Shown piece by piece: positions 9,883-20,857 of a stretch of 20,857 nucleotides of DNA. Source of the stretch: a virus; the IMG/VR virus record IMGVR_UViG_3300027659_000264, positions 1-20,857 of that record. The stretch is one strand, 5' to 3'. How positions within the stretch are numbered: the first letter of the stretch is position 1; each line of letters begins with the position of its first letter. Under the pieces are notes generated by a model that did not search any database, was not told where the DNA came from, and worked only from the letters and a program-made list of their open reading frames with translations. The translations under genes and the position numbers were made by a program.

Positions 9883-12377
9883 TACCCCTTTTTAGGTTTT
9901 TGAGATGCTCTTTGTGCAGATTGGACTGCCATCTGAGCGCGGTGCTTGGCGATTTCAGCGCCAATTTTGGTACCCTCCATAAGCTGTTGCTTTTCGAGTT
10001 TGTCCTTTGCAGCGGCAGCTGTTGCACCAACTTGCATTGCCGCGATTTCTTTTTGGGCTGCGATGCGAGACTCTTCGATACGAAGCTGATCCGCTTTGGT
10101 CGCTGCCTCCATAGCCTGTTTTTGTTGTTTGAGTTGAAGCTCTTGCATCTTGATCTGCAACTCCTGCTGCTGCATCTGCACAATTGGGTCCTGTGCCTGC
10201 TGCTGCGCTTGCTGCTGCGCAGCCTGTGCTTGAGCGTTTTGTGTGATCTGCATGGACGCCTGCGCGGAGAGCTGTGCGACTTGCGCTGCAACTTCTGGAG
10301 CCATGTTCTTGCCTTGTTCTTCAGTAGGCAACAAGAGACCAACAGCTTGCTCAACTTCTCTACGATACGCAAATCCTAAGTGCTCGTTGATGTGCGCCAT
10401 CATTGCAGCCACGATTGCCTGACCTTGTGGAGTCTGCTGAATGAGACCCATGATCTTGGGGTTCTGCAGCATAGAAGTGTGAGTGGCAATATGCGCCTCG
10501 TGTTCTTGCTCAATGAACGCCTTCATAGGTTTGCCAGTCAAGCAATTCTGGTTCTCTTGCACTGGGTCTGTCGGTGTTTGATCGTCCTCAATCGGCACCA
10601 ACTTAGCAGCGTTCTTAATGCCCAACACCTCGATCATTTGACGGTGTAAAAGTGGCAAGTCATACAGCTGTGGTGCTGTCTGTGCAAGCTGAAGTGCAGC
10701 TTGGTACTGAACAATCTTCTGCGCCATCGTTGCAGCGTTTGGATCGCTCACAGGGATCACAGCAACCATGTCGTAGTCAGACTTCTTCGCTTTGCGTGAA
10801 CCTTCGATTGGCTCGTAGTCGTAGTCTTCTGGTGTGTAGTCTGCAATGATTGCTTTTAAGAGACGGAACTCTTGACGCATCGAGTAGTGCATACGCGCTT
10901 GCACAGCGCCCATCACCTTCAACGTTCTCTCAAGAATCGCCAGTGTTGTGCCCACGGGTGCTTGCGCACTCATGTCGCTGACGTTCATGTCTCCTGCGGA
11001 CGCAAACTGCCTACCCTCTTGCACAATGTTCTGGAACAGAGCGAAGAGAACTTGACTGGGTTCTTTGTACGGCAGAGGCAAGATATTGTCTCTAATGGAA
11101 CCGCTTGGTACGTCGACATCACGAAACTCGCCCGGTGCAATAGGGGTGTCGTCGCCCTTGATTCGCAAGCCTCTTGACTTGAGTCCACCCGGTAGATTGG
11201 ATAACGTACCTGCATCAACGAGCTGCCTGATGAGCATGGTCGCGCTCTTCGCATATCCGCCGATAAGGTGAATGAGACCATATCCATAGAAGCCAAACCC
11301 CGGAATGTATTGGTAGTGAACAAAGTGCTGGCGCTTAAGGTGCAGTGCATCGCCTTCGTACCAATTGCGGCGGATGGCCAATACTTTCTGCGTGCCCTTC
11401 TCAACAGTCACAACATAAGGCAGCGCGATACCTGTCTTCTCGCCATCTTTGTCTTTGTGCTCGTAGCCTTCTAAGTCAAGATCAACGTGCATCTCAAGGA
11501 TACGAAAGCGCTCATCCTGCAGTGCTGACATGCCCATCTCTTCAGCTTTTTGCTTCTCAATATCATCAAGCTCGTACGACGGATCACCCAAGTCCACATC
11601 ACTGTAGAACCCAGCTTCTTGCAGCTTCAAAACTTCATTCTCTGTCTTGCGCATCACGTGAGTTACACGCTCTGAAGATTCAAGACTTACTGCGCCGTAG
11701 GGCACAACGATGTCTTCCGCAGGGATAAACATCGCAATCTGACGCCCTTTGCTTGGGTCGTAGTACACCTTCTTGAACGCTGATCCTGCGAGGGGCAAGT
11801 TCCACAACAGCTTCTCATGCTCAGGGCGATACTCCTGCATCACTTCAGTCAGCTGGTAGTTCATATCCTCGCGCACGCGAGTAGAGGCTTCTTCTTTCTC
11901 AGGTGTATCTTTACCAAGAATCTGCGTCTTAACTGGACCCGCTGCTGGGAACGTCTCCATGATCCCCTCGCTCTGGAATCTTACAACAGACTCAGTGAGC
12001 ATCGGGTGGAACACACCACACGCACCTGCCCACGGCTCTGTCCTGTCCTCATACTTCAAGCCCAACAGCTTTAAGCCATCAACATAGGTTTGTATCCAAT
12101 CTCTGCGGTCACCGATGTCTTTAGTGAAGTCATCAACCAACTCTTTACCCAAAGAGTCCAGCACGCTGTCTTTTACGTAGTCGGCAAGATTGGCATCAAA
12201 GTCTTCGCCACCTGTCTCGTCATCACGGGGGATGAGATCAATCTCAATGTCACCCATACCAATACGAACTGCTTCGGGGTCTTCAATCTCAATCTCAATG
12301 GGAGGCATACCCTCTTCATCTTCTTCGATGCCCATAGGTGCTGCGTACAAACCTTTGTCAATTGAACTCGTTGCCAT
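9882..12377 (-). CDS. Portal protein, 831 aa
   Basis: The portal forms the dodecameric ring at the head vertex through which DNA enters. The N-terminal region is acidic (PPIEIEIEDPEAVRIG); the core has DRRDWIQTYVDGLKLLGLKY near residues 91-110, a WAGACGVFHPMLTESVVRFQ stretch, and FIPAEDIVVPYGAVSLESSE near residues 217-236, a pattern I know from P22-like portals of uncultured phages. From about residue 695 to the end it is Gln/Ala-rich and helical (QASMQITQNAQAQ, MQELQLKQQKQAMEAATKAD), like the C-terminal barrel of P22-type portals. AAGGA precedes the ATG. It lies 9 nt after the large terminase gene. At 831 residues it is large, as usual for this group. Confidence 0.85.
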   Translation of the reverse strand: MATSSIDKGLYAAPMGIEEDEEGMPPIEIEIEDPEAVRIGMGDIEIDLIPRDDETGGEDFDANLADYVKDSVLDSLGKELVDDFTKDIGDRRDWIQTYVDGLKLLGLKYEDRTEPWAGACGVFHPMLTESVVRFQSEGIMETFPAAGPVKTQILGKDTPEKEEASTRVREDMNYQLTEVMQEYRPEHEKLLWNLPLAGSAFKKVYYDPSKGRQIAMFIPAEDIVVPYGAVSLESSERVTHVMRKTENEVLKLQEAGFYSDVDLGDPSYELDDIEKQKAEEMGMSALQDERFRILEMHVDLDLEGYEHKDKDGEKTGIALPYVVTVEKGTQKVLAIRRNWYEGDALHLKRQHFVHYQYIPGFGFYGYGLIHLIGGYAKSATMLIRQLVDAGTLSNLPGGLKSRGLRIKGDDTPIAPGEFRDVDVPSGSIRDNILPLPYKEPSQVLFALFQNIVQEGRQFASAGDMNVSDMSAQAPVGTTLAILERTLKVMGAVQARMHYSMRQEFRLLKAIIADYTPEDYDYEPIEGSRKAKKSDYDMVAVIPVSDPNAATMAQKIVQYQAALQLAQTAPQLYDLPLLHRQMIEVLGIKNAAKLVPIEDDQTPTDPVQENQNCLTGKPMKAFIEQEHEAHIATHTSMLQNPKIMGLIQQTPQGQAIVAAMMAHINEHLGFAYRREVEQAVGLLLPTEEQGKNMAPEVAAQVAQLSAQASMQITQNAQAQAAQQQAQQQAQDPIVQMQQQELQIKMQELQLKQQKQAMEAATKADQLRIEESRIAAQKEIAAMQVGATAAAAKDKLEKQQLMEGTKIGAEIAKHRAQMAVQSAQRASQKPKKG

Positions 12378-12386
12378 AATAAATCC

Positions 12387-13904
12387 TTACACTGTGTAGA
12401 ACCGCTCGCGGCGGTGGCTCTTAAACCATTGAATCTCTTCAGGCTCATCAGTCGGAAGACGGAGGAACCCACCCTGACGAAAGCGCATTAGCGCTAAAGT
12501 TGTTGCGTCAACCAAGTCATCGTGCTCGCCTGATGGGAATGCTGCAACTTCGTCTACTAACTCTTCTGCCCAGCGGGTTCGAGGAACCCACACTTTTCCA
12601 GATGCGATGATATCGCTAACGGAGTTTAAGCGGGCAATTTTGTCTTGTCCCTTGCTTGGCGTGTACTCCTGCACAGGTATACCCATCGCTCTGAGATCGT
12701 AAATTAACGGCGCACCAGACGCCTTCTTTTCTACTATTAATGAGTCGGGGTCATACTCGTTATACTCTCTAAGCACGTCTCGTTTAAGCTCTGGAAATTC
12801 AACACGTTTTTTGTATGTATTGAGCAAGATAATGTTAGGCGCAAAGTTATCTTCTTCACAAGAAAAGATACCCCAAGTTGTCCCTGCTGAATAGTCAGCA
12901 CGTTGATTTTTTTCAAAGGCTGTATCCCATGATTGGAGAATAAATTCACAAGCAGGAGGATCATCTTTTTCCCACCATTTCCACCAGTCACGTTTAATAA
13001 TAGCGCTCTCATTACCGACGGGATTCTGCTGATACTGCGCCTGCCATTTGGCGTTAGGCAATTCTTCACGTAAAGCTTCAAGTTCTTCTTTACTCCAGAA
13101 CTGTGGCCATAAGGGGTTGCCCGAAGGGAGAATTGCAGGGAATTCAATTACTTCCCACTCTTCTCCGCTACGCTGCACAGCTGATTTAAGCACTTGCCCC
13201 GTCAAATCTCGCTGCGCCCAACGAGTCATCACAATAACAATTGATCCCCCCGGTTGCAGGCGCTGGCGCGGGCCTGACGTATACCACTCATACACCTTGT
13301 CATAGACTTCTGGGTTGCTGGCCGCCATTGCAGCCTCTTGTTCTGAGTGCGGGTCGTCAATAATTAGGATATCCGCGCCCTTACCGGTCACAGCACCACC
13401 TACACCGATCGCAAAATAGTCGCCACCCTTGTTGGTATTCCATCTACCAGCCGCTTTTGAATCCGCTTGCAGCCCAACACCCGGAAATATCTCTGTATAT
13501 ACGTCCTGATCGACTAAATTTCGCACTTTTCGACCAAAACCCACAGCTAATTCAGCCGTATGGCTGGTCTGAATGACTTTTTTCTCTGGAAAGTTGCCTA
13601 AAAACCACGCTGGCAGCAAATATGAGGCAAATTCTGACTTTGTATGGCGCGGCGGCATATTAATAATGAGCCTTTTGCACTCCCCGCGAGCCACTCGCTC
13701 AAATGCCTTGGCCATTCTCTTGTGATGCGAGCCTTCAATGAAGTGCGGCCACACTTTTTTTACAAAAGCCATGAAAGAACCCCTAGCCTCCTCCCTTTCA
13801 GCAAGAATCTCCTGTTCATCTAACGATACGATGAGGTCGCGGAGCTGTGCTTCAGGAAGATTTGGCAGAATTTTCAGTAAGTTCTGTAATTTCTGATGAT
13901 CCAT
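12387..13904 (-). CDS. terL: Terminase large subunit, 505 aa
   Basis: This is the DNA-packaging motor ATPase and nuclease. ATPase motifs: Walker A-like NMPPRHTKSE at residues 82-91, Walker B ILIIDDPHS at 179-187, and the coupling motif MTRW at 226-229. RNase H-like nuclease motifs: Asp327 in SWDTAF, Glu392 in IVEKKASG, and Asp462/Asp463 in EHDDLVDAT. The length fits. The Walker A has Thr where the familiar PPRHGKS form has Gly. The ATG at 13904 overlaps the upstream gene by 53 bp; a shorter start would remove the N-terminal helix, so I keep it. The ribosome-binding site is weak (AAAG), suggesting coupling to upstream translation. Confidence 0.95.
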   Translation of the reverse strand: MDHQKLQNLLKILPNLPEAQLRDLIVSLDEQEILAEREEARGSFMAFVKKVWPHFIEGSHHKRMAKAFERVARGECKRLIINMPPRHTKSEFASYLLPAWFLGNFPEKKVIQTSHTAELAVGFGRKVRNLVDQDVYTEIFPGVGLQADSKAAGRWNTNKGGDYFAIGVGGAVTGKGADILIIDDPHSEQEAAMAASNPEVYDKVYEWYTSGPRQRLQPGGSIVIVMTRWAQRDLTGQVLKSAVQRSGEEWEVIEFPAILPSGNPLWPQFWSKEELEALREELPNAKWQAQYQQNPVGNESAIIKRDWWKWWEKDDPPACEFILQSWDTAFEKNQRADYSAGTTWGIFSCEEDNFAPNIILLNTYKKRVEFPELKRDVLREYNEYDPDSLIVEKKASGAPLIYDLRAMGIPVQEYTPSKGQDKIARLNSVSDIIASGKVWVPRTRWAEELVDEVAAFPSGEHDDLVDATTLALMRFRQGGFLRLPTDEPEEIQWFKSHRRERFYTV

Positions 13905-14523
13905 CTTTTACTTTATTAACTTCAAGCTGGGCTAACTCGTCATCGTCGTCGATGCCAAGGTCTTTCTTTGTATCCTTGGGGGTTACATCTGTAATACCTA
14001 TAGATAGCAGGCGGTTAATCTTCTGTTCAATGACCTGTTGAAGATCACTGGATGAACGGTGTGTAATAGTGATTTCAGATTTTTCGGTAAACGCACCGAT
14101 GTCTGACATCTTTCCGATAAGTTCTAAGGCACGAAGTTCTGACTTGGTGTCCCCACAGGTGCTTAGCTCTAGCAGCCTGTTCATAATATATGTACGCGCC
14201 TGCGTTGCGTCGACCACCACGCGGTGGTCATACTCTGTTAGCAAAGCTGCTAGCTTAAGGGCTACGTTACCCTGATAGAGAGCCGGTGGATTTGACTTCT
14301 CCTTATCCTGACCATTTTGTTTTTTCTTCTTATCTACCTGCGCAAAAAGTTTACGCGCCGCCTCTTCGTCGTCTTCCGTCATTTCAAACGGCATGCCGAG
14401 CTCAGACATTAGCGCTGCTGTCGCAGCAGCAACTCGTGCATTTTCTTGGAGGGACTCGCCTACCTCCTCTGCTAACGAGGTGGGAACTGGATGTTCATTT
14501 GATGGCGAAATATTAAAGGTCAT
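13852..14523 (-). CDS. Terminase small subunit candidate, 223 aa
   Basis: I start this at the ATG at 14523; a longer frame begins at a TTG at 14595 without a ribosome-binding site. The central part is helical: LAALLTEYDHRVVVDATQAR near residues 89-108, a YIMNRLLELSTCG segment, ELRALELIGKMSDIGAF near 126-142, then EITITHRSSSDLQQVIEQKI. The DNA-packaging partner gene lies immediately downstream with a 53-bp overlap, which is the expected small-terminase position. Similar proteins in aquatic phages carry this call. Helix-turn-helix residues are not clear to me. Acidic C-terminal sequence (DDDDELAQLE) could contact the large subunit. Confidence 0.65.
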   Translation of the reverse strand: MTFNISPSNEHPVPTSLAEEVGESLQENARVAAATAALMSELGMPFEMTEDDEEAARKLFAQVDKKKKQNGQDKEKSNPPALYQGNVALKLAALLTEYDHRVVVDATQARTYIMNRLLELSTCGDTKSELRALELIGKMSDIGAFTEKSEITITHRSSSDLQQVIEQKINRLLSIGITDVTPKDTKKDLGIDDDDELAQLEVNKVKDGSSEITELTENSAKSS

Positions 14524-14640
14524 AAGCACCGAAAAGTTATCGGGAAGTGTTGGGCACGCGGCGTCCCCTAACAAGCCGACTGTAACAGATTTCAAAATTT
14601 TTGCAAAAATATTTTTTGGCTGTCTTGATACTCTAATACC

Positions 14641-15015: not shown

Positions 15016-15669
15016 TCAGTCTTCGATCGTGTATTCGATATCGGTGTTCTCATCCAGTAACTGGACGACCGCATATAGCTTCTCTATATCAGTGCACTTA
15101 GAAGCAAGCTCTTTCACTTCGGCTCGGGCGGCTTTGAGCTCTTCTCCGAGAGCTTTGTTCTCTTCGCTCGTCTTTGCCCTGATAACCTTCTCAAGCTCTT
15201 TCTGGGTCTTCTTGAGCTCTTTGTCCTCGGGCTTGTCTGCGAGCTTCTTGTAGTTCTTAGCCAACTGGTCGCGGAGCTCCCATGCGCTTTGATCTTCGTA
15301 CTTCTCGAGCAAAGCCTCTTGAGCTTTCTCTCTTTGCTCTGACTTCTTCACCGCCGCCGCTCCAGTGCTTTTTGGTTTTGTCATACCATAAAGCTCGTCC
15401 AGCAACTTCGCAAATTCCTTCCATGCTTTGTCACTGGCGTTCGCGGTAAGGTCGGGGTTTTGGTGAGCGTGACCGTCAACCCACTGGACACGATAAGCTT
15501 CCCATTCTTCGTAGCTTGGAGAAGCTCCGAGAGTTTGAGCGGCAGAAGTAACGACCTCTACGCGCTCGAGCTTGTTGCGAGCGAAGCGTGAACCCTGCTC
15601 GTATGCTTGGGTTTCGCGGTCGAATGATAGAGCTTTAATCGCTCCGGCTACTGTAGACAATTCAGTCAT
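15016..15669 (-). CDS. Paralogue A: charged helical protein, 217 aa, unknown function
   Basis: AGGGAG lies 6 nt before the ATG. The N-terminal domain includes YEEWEAYRVQWVDGHAHQNP at residues 53-72, an ASDKAWKEFAKLLDELYGM segment, then a Lys/Glu-rich helix that looks like a coiled coil (KSEQREKAQEALLEKYED, LKKTQKELEKVIRAK). It ends KCTDIEKLYAVV...DIEYTIED. The protein aligns along its full length with the next minus-strand gene (15916-16554): shared positions include a G-A-x-P-x-Y block, W/R in the helix, ASD/SAD-x-AF/AW, LYG/TYG-x-x-x-PK, and KC-D...DI...I-D at the end. A DNA-binding or structural role is possible; no known domain is recognised. Confidence 0.85.
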   Translation of the reverse strand: MTELSTVAGAIKALSFDRETQAYEQGSRFARNKLERVEVVTSAAQTLGASPSYEEWEAYRVQWVDGHAHQNPDLTANASDKAWKEFAKLLDELYGMTKPKSTGAAAVKKSEQREKAQEALLEKYEDQSAWELRDQLAKNYKKLADKPEDKELKKTQKELEKVIRAKTSEENKALGEELKAARAEVKELASKCTDIEKLYAVVQLLDENTDIEYTIED

Positions 15670-15915: not shown

Positions 15916-16554
15916 TTAGTCGGAAATTGTCTCGGCCTGTATGTCGTGGTCAGGGTTCATCATTTCGTGAGCTAATGCCAGCCGGTCTAGGTCGTCGCAT
16001 TTGCGTACCCAAGTAATAAGTTCATCCCTTAGTGCCTTAAGTTCCTCCCGCTGTCCCTCGGCCTCTTGCTTGATGCGTAGTGAGACGGCCTTTTCAAGTT
16101 CGCGCAGGATTGCGGATTTCTTGGTTGGGTTCTTGGCCTGTGCTTGATACTCATTACTCAGCAAGTCCTTAAGTACTCGGGTGGTTGTGCCAGCGTATCT
16201 TGCTTCTAGTGCATCCTGTTTGGCTTTGCGTTCCTCGGCCTTTTTCAATGCGGCCTCAGTCTGGGCTTTGGGGGCTTCGAGTCCATAGGTGTCTAGCAAG
16301 CGGCCTTTAAAGCGTTTAAATGCTTGGTCGGCTGAGTTGCCCTTGGCCTGTGGTTTGGTACGCACATACGCATTGATGAATTCAAGGCGGCAAGAATTCC
16401 AGATATCGTATGTCGGTTCTGCCCCTACTGACTTAGCAAACAGTTCTAGTGCTTGACCAGCGTCTATTTCCGATTGAGCAAACAGTTCACCAGATTGCTT
16501 GGCAAGTTCGGCTTGAGTTGCGTCAATAGCTTGGGCTACTTTATTAAGTTCCAT
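15916..16554 (-). CDS. Paralogue B: charged helical protein, 212 aa, unknown function
   Basis: I choose the ATG at 16554 because AAGGAAA lies 4 nt upstream; an in-frame ATG at 16584 would add 10 residues but has only a weak site. The layout matches paralogue A: VGAEPTYDIWNSCRLEFINA, an NSADQAFKRFKGRLLDTYGL segment, a Lys/Ala/Glu-rich helix (KKAEERKAKQDALEARY) and a KCDDLDRLALAHEMM...DIQAETISD end. It lies between the two 25-bp repeats and has its own terminator. Amino-acid divergence from A is large, so the duplication is old or the two were acquired separately. No recognised domain; a paired regulatory or replication role is possible. Confidence 0.85.
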   Translation of the reverse strand: MELNKVAQAIDATQAELAKQSGELFAQSEIDAGQALELFAKSVGAEPTYDIWNSCRLEFINAYVRTKPQAKGNSADQAFKRFKGRLLDTYGLEAPKAQTEAALKKAEERKAKQDALEARYAGTTTRVLKDLLSNEYQAQAKNPTKKSAILRELEKAVSLRIKQEAEGQREELKALRDELITWVRKCDDLDRLALAHEMMNPDHDIQAETISD

Positions 16555-16684
16555 GATTTTCCTTAGGTTAGTGGATACTGACATAATGACCCATCGTCAA
16601 AATGTCCCTACCTTAATAGCACAAACCAGTCATTTTGCTCCCCGTACAAACCCTATATGTAGGGCAAAGGACAAAGGGCATGGA

Positions 16685-16709
16685 GAACGGTCACTTCAAC
16701 GCGATAGCC
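16685..16709. repeat. 25-bp cassette repeat, copy 2
   Basis: This second copy matches 15849-15873 at 24 of 25 positions. It lies upstream of paralogue B and directly borders the first site of the AGAACATT array (16711). Conservation in noncoding DNA beyond that of the paralogous genes themselves suggests a bound element or recent recombination. Confidence 0.9.
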
Positions 16710-16710
16710 T

Positions 16711-17027
16711 AATGTTCTAAAAACGGCTTTTTTCGAACATTGCAGAACATTGTAAGTCCTTGATTTATAAGGAATGTTCTATATTGTTCCAAATGTTCCG
16801 AGGTTTTTTGAAAAAATCGATTTTTCAGTTTTTGCAGATCGGCAAGGCTCTCCGGCAAGTGCAAATCTCAGGGGGGCGGTACTATTATTATTTTAGAACA
16901 TTATAGAACATTCAGAACATTACATAACTTAAAACAAAAAACATTAGTAAAAACAACAACTTACGAGCGTTTCACAATGTTCGAATTTTTCCTTCTAATG
17001 TTCGAATTTTTCCATTTTTAGAACATT
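16711..17027. repeat. Array of twelve AGAACATT/AATGTTCT sites (origin or operator candidate)
   Basis: Sites begin at 16711, 16734, 16744, 16773, 16783 (ATTGTTCC, degenerate), 16792, 16895, 16905, 16914, 16976, 16997 and 17020, in both orientations. Three sites are spaced 10 and 9 bp (16895-16921), about one helical turn. Between the two groups (16800-16894) lie the palindrome AAAAATCGATTTTT (16812-16825) and two CGGCAAG direct repeats (16840-16860). The whole is noncoding, AT-rich and between divergent gene modules. It resembles an iteron-type replication origin, or a cooperative binding array for a phage regulator. Confidence 0.75.
16976..17013. repeat. 17-bp perfect direct repeat, 21-bp period
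   Basis: AATGTTCGAATTTTTCC occurs at 16976-16992 and 16997-17013. The 21-bp period is two helical turns, so proteins bound here would face the same side. The repeats contain the array core plus a T-rich tail. Confidence 0.9.
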
Positions 17028-17089
17028 ACCCTCAAAACCCTAAATACAGGCCAAATCCAAGACACTCTGCTACGCCACGATACACTTAC

Positions 17090-17118
17090 TTGACAAAGTA
17101 TAGTATTTGTGTTATACT
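17090..17118 (+). promoter_or_regulatory. Near-consensus sigma70 promoter of the plus-strand module
   Basis: TTGACA (17090-17095) and TATACT (17113-17118) are separated by exactly 17 bp, a -35 consensus and a 5 of 6 -10. Transcription would begin near 17125. It lies immediately right of the AGAACATT array, so that array could control it. It is the strongest promoter in the window and probably acts early, with host polymerase. Confidence 0.85.
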
Positions 17119-17124
17119 TGGGCT

Positions 17125-17187
17125 CTGCCCAACGGCAGGGGGATGCCCATGCGCCACTACCGCCAAGCATCTTCAGCGACATTCTGA
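17125..17187 (+). promoter_or_regulatory. mRNA leader with 5' hairpin and possible 12-aa leader peptide
   Basis: The expected transcript starts with a hairpin, CTGCC-CAAC-GGCAG (17125-17138), which could protect the 5' end. Just after it, GGGGG at 17138-17142 is followed 6 nt later by an ATG at 17149, opening a 12-codon frame (MRHYRQASSATF) ending at 17187. It may be translated, but nothing in the sequence shows a regulatory need. The real first gene starts at 17230. Confidence 0.4.
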
Positions 17188-17229
17188 CACTTGGTCATTT
17201 TGTCTTTCTTTATCACTTTGGAGGTTCTT

Positions 17230-18268: not shown

Positions 18269-18579
18269 GCAAGATAAACGGCTTTGAGTATCACCGACTG
18301 GTCAAACTGGTGCGGTGCATCGAGGTTGACTTACGCAACTTTCTTGCGAACCCTGCCGAGTACCGGTCCGAGTACTTTGAGGACACTCACTATGTAGCTA
18401 TGGAAGTGCTAGATATATTGGGCGCGGAACCATCGGAGGTAAAAGAAACTGAATCCGAAATCAGTTGGGAAGAAGCATGGGGCGAAGCAATCGCCAAGCA
18501 CGATGACGAAGAACACGCACGCGAGCTGGAGAACTTTGACCCCATCTCAATAGCAGAGCAGAGAGAAGCGACAAAGTGA
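18265..18579 (+). CDS. Acidic protein, 104 aa, unknown function
   Basis: The product is acidic, with a helical N-terminus (GFEYHRLVKLVRCIEVDLRN), a YVAMEVLDILGAEPSEVKE segment and a Glu/Ala-rich C-terminus (SWEEAWGEAIAKHDDEEHAR). GGGAGAA lies upstream of the ATG. It ends 59 bp before the ATPase gene, the widest gap so far in this module. High acidity would suit an inhibitor or DNA mimic, but there is no direct evidence of that. Confidence 0.75.
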   Translation: MSKINGFEYHRLVKLVRCIEVDLRNFLANPAEYRSEYFEDTHYVAMEVLDILGAEPSEVKETESEISWEEAWGEAIAKHDDEEHARELENFDPISIAEQREATK

Positions 18580-18611
18580 CCAACAGTCATATTGTCTTTA
18601 ATTGTGTTGGT
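18579..18611 (+). promoter_or_regulatory. Inverted repeat before the ATPase gene
   Basis: ACCAACA (18579-18585) and TGTTGGT (18605-18611) form a perfect 7-bp inverted repeat with a 19-nt spacer, followed by a T-rich stretch (TTTTTAA). It may be an attenuating hairpin or an operator. It is the only noncoding gap of this kind in the plus-strand module. Confidence 0.4.
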
Positions 18612-20270: not shown

Positions 20271-20857
20271 ATGAAACTGACTGCAGAACAGCGCATTGAA
20301 CGTGCGCACGTCAAACTCATGCAGAGCAAAAACTTTTGTTACTTTGCAGGGGTGTTTATGATCGGCAAGGTTGATGTTAGCGACACATTAAAAACCGCTA
20401 GCACCAACGGCAGAGATGTAACCTATGGTCGTGAGTTTGTTGATATCCTGACAGATAAACAACTTGCGTTTCTCGTTATCCACGAAGCGATGCACAAAGC
20501 CTATCGACACATGAGCGTATGGCAGAAGATCGCTAGGGAAGATCGCGCCTTGGCTAATGCGGCTATGGATTATGTTATTAACTTACAGATACGCGATGCC
20601 GACCCATACGAGGAAGAAGTCGCTATGCCACGCAAGCCTAATGGCGAATTGCTCGGTCTATACGATGAGAAGTATCGCGGACTCGACACGCATCAAGTTT
20701 ACATGCTACTCAAGGAAGAAGGTGGTGGCGGTGGTGGTCCAGTCGGGCCAGATGAGGGTGAGGGTAATGGTAGTGAGCAAGGGAACGGTCTGGGTGGGGG
20801 TGGCTCGGGACAAAGTGACGAGGCGTCAGATGGTCTTGACGAACACGATTGGGATGG
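20271..20857 (+). CDS. HExxH metallopeptidase-like protein (DUF2201/VWA-like), partial
   Basis: The gene runs from the ATG at 20271 past the window end. The zinc-peptidase motif HEAMH is at residues 71-75 within VIHEAMHKAYRH, followed by a NAAMDYVIN segment (96-104) that would supply a further ligand region in this family. A Gly-rich linker begins about residue 151 (GGGGGG), followed by an acidic Gly/Ser/Asp stretch, as in DUF2201/VWA-like proteins where the linker precedes a VWA-like domain not visible here. These proteins are often paired with MoxR ATPases. The protease activity and phage role are inference. Confidence 0.85.
   Translation, partial: MKLTAEQRIERAHVKLMQSKNFCYFAGVFMIGKVDVSDTLKTASTNGRDVTYGREFVDILTDKQLAFLVIHEAMHKAYRHMSVWQKIAREDRALANAAMDYVINLQIRDADPYEEEVAMPRKPNGELLGLYDEKYRGLDTHQVYMLLKEEGGGGGGPVGPDEGEGNGSEQGNGLGGGGSGQSDEASDGLDEHDWD

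Follow-up and report, generated by a model that had tools for sequence, protein, structure and literature searches.

The DNA analysed here (the window, 20,857 nt) is a 20.9-kb partial virus record. Its minus strand carries the gene for the large terminase (12387..13904, 48–56% to annotated large terminases), a likely small terminase (13852..14595), proposed from a C-terminal pattern and its position and having no library match, and two paralogues: paralogue 2 (15016..15669, 217 aa) and paralogue 1 (15916..16584, 222 aa, all-helical, with a start more likely at 16553). On the plus strand, the early promoter reported at 17090 in the initial annotation was found as a near-consensus TTGACA-17-TATACT (17090..17118), with a counterpart in nearly all relatives. 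Gene order around the locus is near-constant: portal, large terminase (terL), likely small terminase (terS), paralogue 2, paralogue 1, the array described below, and then the early-side genes, in the order zinc-ribbon, AAA ATPase, DUF2201, polA, exonuclease, SNF2, HTH and DUF927 primase-helicase. The nearest capsid and terminase were those of Planktothrix phage Pag-Yong1, Pelagibacter phages HTVC023P/027P and phage DSL-LC04; a search of bacterial genomes for the host found no relative. In one record (G16, L156), a paralogue homologue between terS and the array is inverted and still adjoins the latter. In L032 (two copies), L033, L034, L038 and L013, though not in the window, a TTGACA resembling a promoter element precedes the inverted repeat GTTAAGCTGC-GCAGCTTAAC on the late side, upstream of paralogue 1.

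The noncoding DNA at 16711..17027 contains 12 sites of VGAACAWT. GAACATT itself occurs there as 11 exact words, on both strands, while dinucleotide shuffling of the 606-bp intergenic stretch (2000 shuffles) gave 0.12 expected and a maximum of 2. Using AGAACATT, 7 exact sites were counted in the same interval (0.04 expected, maximum 1) and 12 with one mismatch at most (0.85 expected, maximum 5), again relative to 2000 shuffles; outside the array, exact AGAACATT is present only once in the window, at 11025. The twelve-site array of the initial annotation is therefore real and far above shuffles, and its grouping into six and six was correct, except for one member: GAACAAT at 16783 makes a better twelfth site, completing a triplet at 16773/16783/16792, and AAAACATT at 16938, a degenerate copy, is best not counted among the twelve. 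The region is also covered by short ORFs, at 16709-16864 and 17018-17182, that look spurious.

The sites form two inverted half-arrays of six, laid out as mirror images around a 97-bp centre (strands from left to right: - + + - - - and + + + - - +), with arms 81% and 91% complementary. The late-side half-array (16711..16799) has sites at 16711 (-), 16734 (+) and 16744 (+), followed by the triplet, all on the minus strand and spaced by about 10/9 bp. The early-side half-array (16895..17027) begins with its own triplet, at 16895, 16905 and 16914 (+), and continues beyond the degenerate 16938 with 16976 (-), 16997 (-) and 17020 (+). Next to the late-side half-array, GGCTACCNCGTTGANRTGACCGTTC (about 16680-16710 in the window, and in relatives) is also strongly conserved.

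The middle of the centre is a conserved GC-rich core (16834..16883) with two copies of CGGCAAG and CGGCAAGTG; 30 of its 32 core positions are invariant in five close relatives, and CGGCAAGTG or a variant is present in most distant relatives. Next to it, the A/T-rich flank with GAAAAAATCGATTTTTC (16800..16833; 72% A+T in that third of the centre) is a possible unwinding stretch. With its GC-rich core included, the centre has an A+T content of 51-65%, and the array as a whole 59-69%, compared to 51-54% for the genome. An IHF-consensus site, AATCAAGGACTTA (WATCAANNNNTTR), lies on the minus strand at 16753..16765, beside the innermost late-side site, and an imperfect one with one mismatch, AAACAACAACTTA, on the plus strand at 16951..16963, on the early side, where several relatives have an exact match. 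Among 15 loci, which are related to each other and hence not independent, 11 have an exact IHF-consensus site at a distance of 20-72 bp from the innermost site of the late side (shuffles predict 0.09), and the other 4 have one with a single mismatch; several loci have a second site on the opposite side. Judging from this consensus, IHF may occupy these sites.

Conservation was examined in viral contigs whose paralogue 1 matches at 88-93% in close relatives and 32-47% in distant ones. The array is present in 24 of the 24 records that reach the locus (the window counted, some being near-duplicates), always as a single locus per genome with a rigid internal layout: innermost sites 104-136 bp apart, triplets at 8-10 bp and outer sites mostly at 21-26 bp. 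Outside the array, no 450-bp stretch of any record holds more than 3 sites (0-3 in the densest). Thus the array is neither matched by equal motif density elsewhere nor restricted to the window, the two points on which the initial annotation had made its proposal depend. In five close relatives, 80 of 84 positions within sites are invariant, versus 171 of 233 in spacers (p = 7e-6). In one sub-lineage (G8, G9, G10, G14, G15), every site is replaced by NTACAWT and the layout is kept; such a joint switch is what is expected if one protein reads all the sites.

The relatives encode a 958-aa DUF927 primase-helicase with an N-terminal primase-like part. Its gene lies outside the window, about 15-21 kb from the array in relatives. 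It is homologous to the SCCmec helicase Cch (5DGK), both by sequence (E 1.5e-9 with the single sequence, 4.9e-15 with a profile) and by fold (Foldseek E 1e-9, from a model of low overall quality, pLDDT 54). For the C-terminal ~100 residues of the protein, the model predicts, with moderate confidence, strand-strand-helix-helix-strand-strand, an arrangement compatible with a winged helix. Among the relatives of Cch is SaPIbov1 Rep, and it is through the C-terminal domain that SaPI Reps bind iterons (PMC7581432); helicases of this DUF927 type include the SaPI initiator Rep. The DUF927 helicase is thus the likely initiator binding the array. The initial annotation had proposed that a phage-encoded protein binds there and had looked for it among the small genes nearby; a phage-encoded binder remains our choice, and a small neighbour is the less likely source. 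A second candidate could be the 80-aa HTH protein encoded next to the helicase gene, which diverges weakly in step with the site switch. The zinc-ribbon protein was discarded, its signal being inconsistent. Paralogue 1, for which the all-helical model has no PDB match, is a less likely binder, though it stays a candidate, as its homologue is near the array in G16 despite the inversion.

Pseudomonas phage Rollin has counterparts of this family's polA, SNF2, g291 and DUF927 genes, and none of the family's terL, portal or capsid genes tested has a detectable homologue in it. Of the nine TATGCAA words in Rollin, eight are gathered at 260-679 in a two-part layout (> 22 > 22 > ... < 9 < 9 < ...) that includes a triplet spaced by 9/9 bp; an IHF-consensus site is present at 324. 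Rhizobium phage RHph_TM3_14A carries the same replication module; the 50 kb of it that were read contain two IHF-consensus sites and no others, both in one A/T-rich intergenic stretch, in which no clear iteron array was found.

We consider it probable that the array is a phage replication origin working like the rep-ori of SaPIs and PICIs, with the DUF927 helicase as its likely initiator. What was observed is the array with its symmetry and conservation, the IHF consensus, a helicase homologous to Cch and the association with the replication module; binding and origin activity are proposed on that basis. In the mechanism we suggest, the primase-helicase would bind the VGAACAWT iterons, probably via its C-terminal domain, and IHF would bend the DNA beside the triplet. 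A helicase ring would then assemble on each inverted half-array, the A/T-rich DNA next to the GC-rich centre would open, and forks would leave both ways. The identity of the binder, the occupancy by IHF, the two rings, the melting and the bidirectional firing are all putative steps of this scheme.

PICI origins are described as always having two sets of iterons, one on each side of an AT-rich region (PMC6092414). As in SaPIs and PICIs, two sets of short iterons surround a central region, a DUF927-type helicase (SaPIbov1 Rep, Cch) is encoded in the same element, the cognate pairing being putative here, and the iteron words vary by lineage while the plan is constant. There are also differences: in SaPIs the origin directly follows rep, whereas 15-21 kb separate the array from the helicase gene; those elements are satellites and ours are phages; and the array has IHF-consensus sites and a conserved GC-rich core. 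Since the origin is not next to the rep gene and binding is putative, we describe the array as working like a SaPI/PICI origin and not as a member of that class. Compared to Cch, which resembles the DUF927 part of the phage protein, the latter has the additional N-terminal primase-like part. Two other kinds of origin were compared: SPP1 oriL/oriR also combine repeats with an A/T-rich stretch (PMC6316719), but with direct repeats and a different initiator, and iteron plasmid origins have 17-22-bp direct repeats, whereas the sites here are 7-8 bp long and in both orientations. In the papers searched, no origin of the kind proposed here for these phages was described.

Several findings were counted against the origin: the distance to the helicase gene, a centre that is not strongly A/T-rich and has a GC-rich core, the poor helicase model, the HTH protein as alternative binder, the lack of a clear array in RHph_TM3_14A, and a position 2-3 kb from terS/terL, the usual neighbourhood of a pac site. 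Cumulative GC skew, which the initial annotation proposed to check for an inflection at the array, reaches its minimum near it in two long relatives, with the maximum at the convergent point; this minimum coincides with the switch in gene direction, so that it was not counted as evidence.

The nearby terminase genes raise the question of packaging. The array could be a pac site, with the small terminase binding both half-arrays and the large terminase cutting the conserved centre, as in SPP1 pacL-pacC-pacR, where TerS-bound regions lie on both sides of the cut, near terS (PMC6316719). Indeed, in all relatives the array lies shortly before the terS-terL-portal operon, the likely terS being about 2 kb away, and two contigs (G12 and G23) terminate inside it. 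Moreover, HTVC023P and Pag-Yong1, which share the capsid and terminase and lack the DUF927 module, have word clusters of their own beside terS or a terS-like gene: CTAGGAA x5 in HTVC023P (L182, 11680-11770) and GTCATAC x9 in Pag-Yong1 (L179, record 41225-41600). Against this, most contigs continue across the array, and the longest are permuted at other places, which also led us to reject cos-type ends at the array. No recognisable HTH is present in the likely terS, DSL-LC04 has the same capsid and terminase type and no such array was seen in it, and SPP1 pac overlaps gene 1. Finally, the same type of array accompanies an unrelated terminase and capsid in Rollin, where terL is of another type and about 6 kb away. 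We therefore regard a pac site as unlikely.

The locus also lies amid a second repeat, a 27-bp palindrome of the form GACA-N3-TGAC-N5-GTCA-N3-TGTC, found in all related records, with 6-11 copies per long one. In ten long records these dyads are confined to the interval from -1.1 to +9.9 kb relative to the array, and their distances from it are similar; 213 distinct forms were collected, with nearly invariant arms, and dyads persist in records whose array motif has switched. Some copies come shortly before a ribosome-binding site and some are within genes, where they keep a single reading frame; in the early region, one resembles a terminator, with a T-run after it. In the window, dyads were found in the leader of the late-side operon (16580..16606), in the leader of the early operon (17178..17204), upstream of the AAA ATPase gene (18570..18596) and, with one mismatch, inside the DUF2201 gene (20809..20835). 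An RNA hairpin was rejected, as the arms are without wobble or compensatory change and the dyads have no Rfam match; the leader positions still leave some room for it. In Rollin (OR577172; L184), the palindrome AAGGTAGYAASTTRCTACCTT occurs in four copies in or beside the array (3, 48, 395, 475) and is perhaps the counterpart of the dyads. That array and dyads belong to a single system centred on the origin, where another phage factor would read the dyads and couple replication start to early expression, is a speculative extension to which we give a low probability.

The initial annotation had left the choice between a replication origin and a master operator, i.e. a cooperative cluster read by a phage regulator to control two divergent operons. 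The array does lie between divergent operons, with its halves in mirror orientation toward each promoter. However, no site overlaps the near-consensus early promoter in the window, the distance between the two ranges from about 32 to 320 bp across relatives while the internal spacing stays fixed, and in G19 and G23 some sites are even past the promoter. No integrase (PF00589) was found in 8 related records, all possibly incomplete, and the dyads, which sit in leaders, are better operator candidates. This variable spacing, the integrase search, the built-in IHF-consensus site, the Cch/SaPI-Rep-type helicase encoded by the phages and the same kind of array in Rollin, which shares the replication module only, lead us to favour the origin and to hold an operator improbable. 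A partition or other structural, centromere-like site bound by a phage protein would account for the repeated short sites and the conserved ~10 kb neighbourhood of dyads, but the genes examined, a subset of the whole, included none for a ParA- or ParM-like partner, and we think such a site very improbable.

If the array is such an origin, an uncultured freshwater phage family with capsid genes akin to those in phages of SAR11 and cyanobacteria would have a defined origin and a likely initiator, and the SaPI/PICI origin plan would also be used by phages themselves. The natural GAACAWT to NTACAWT switch would offer a direct test of the residues that set specificity, and Rollin of Pseudomonas aeruginosa, for which the same kind of origin is predicted, would allow the idea to be tested in a phage that is in culture.
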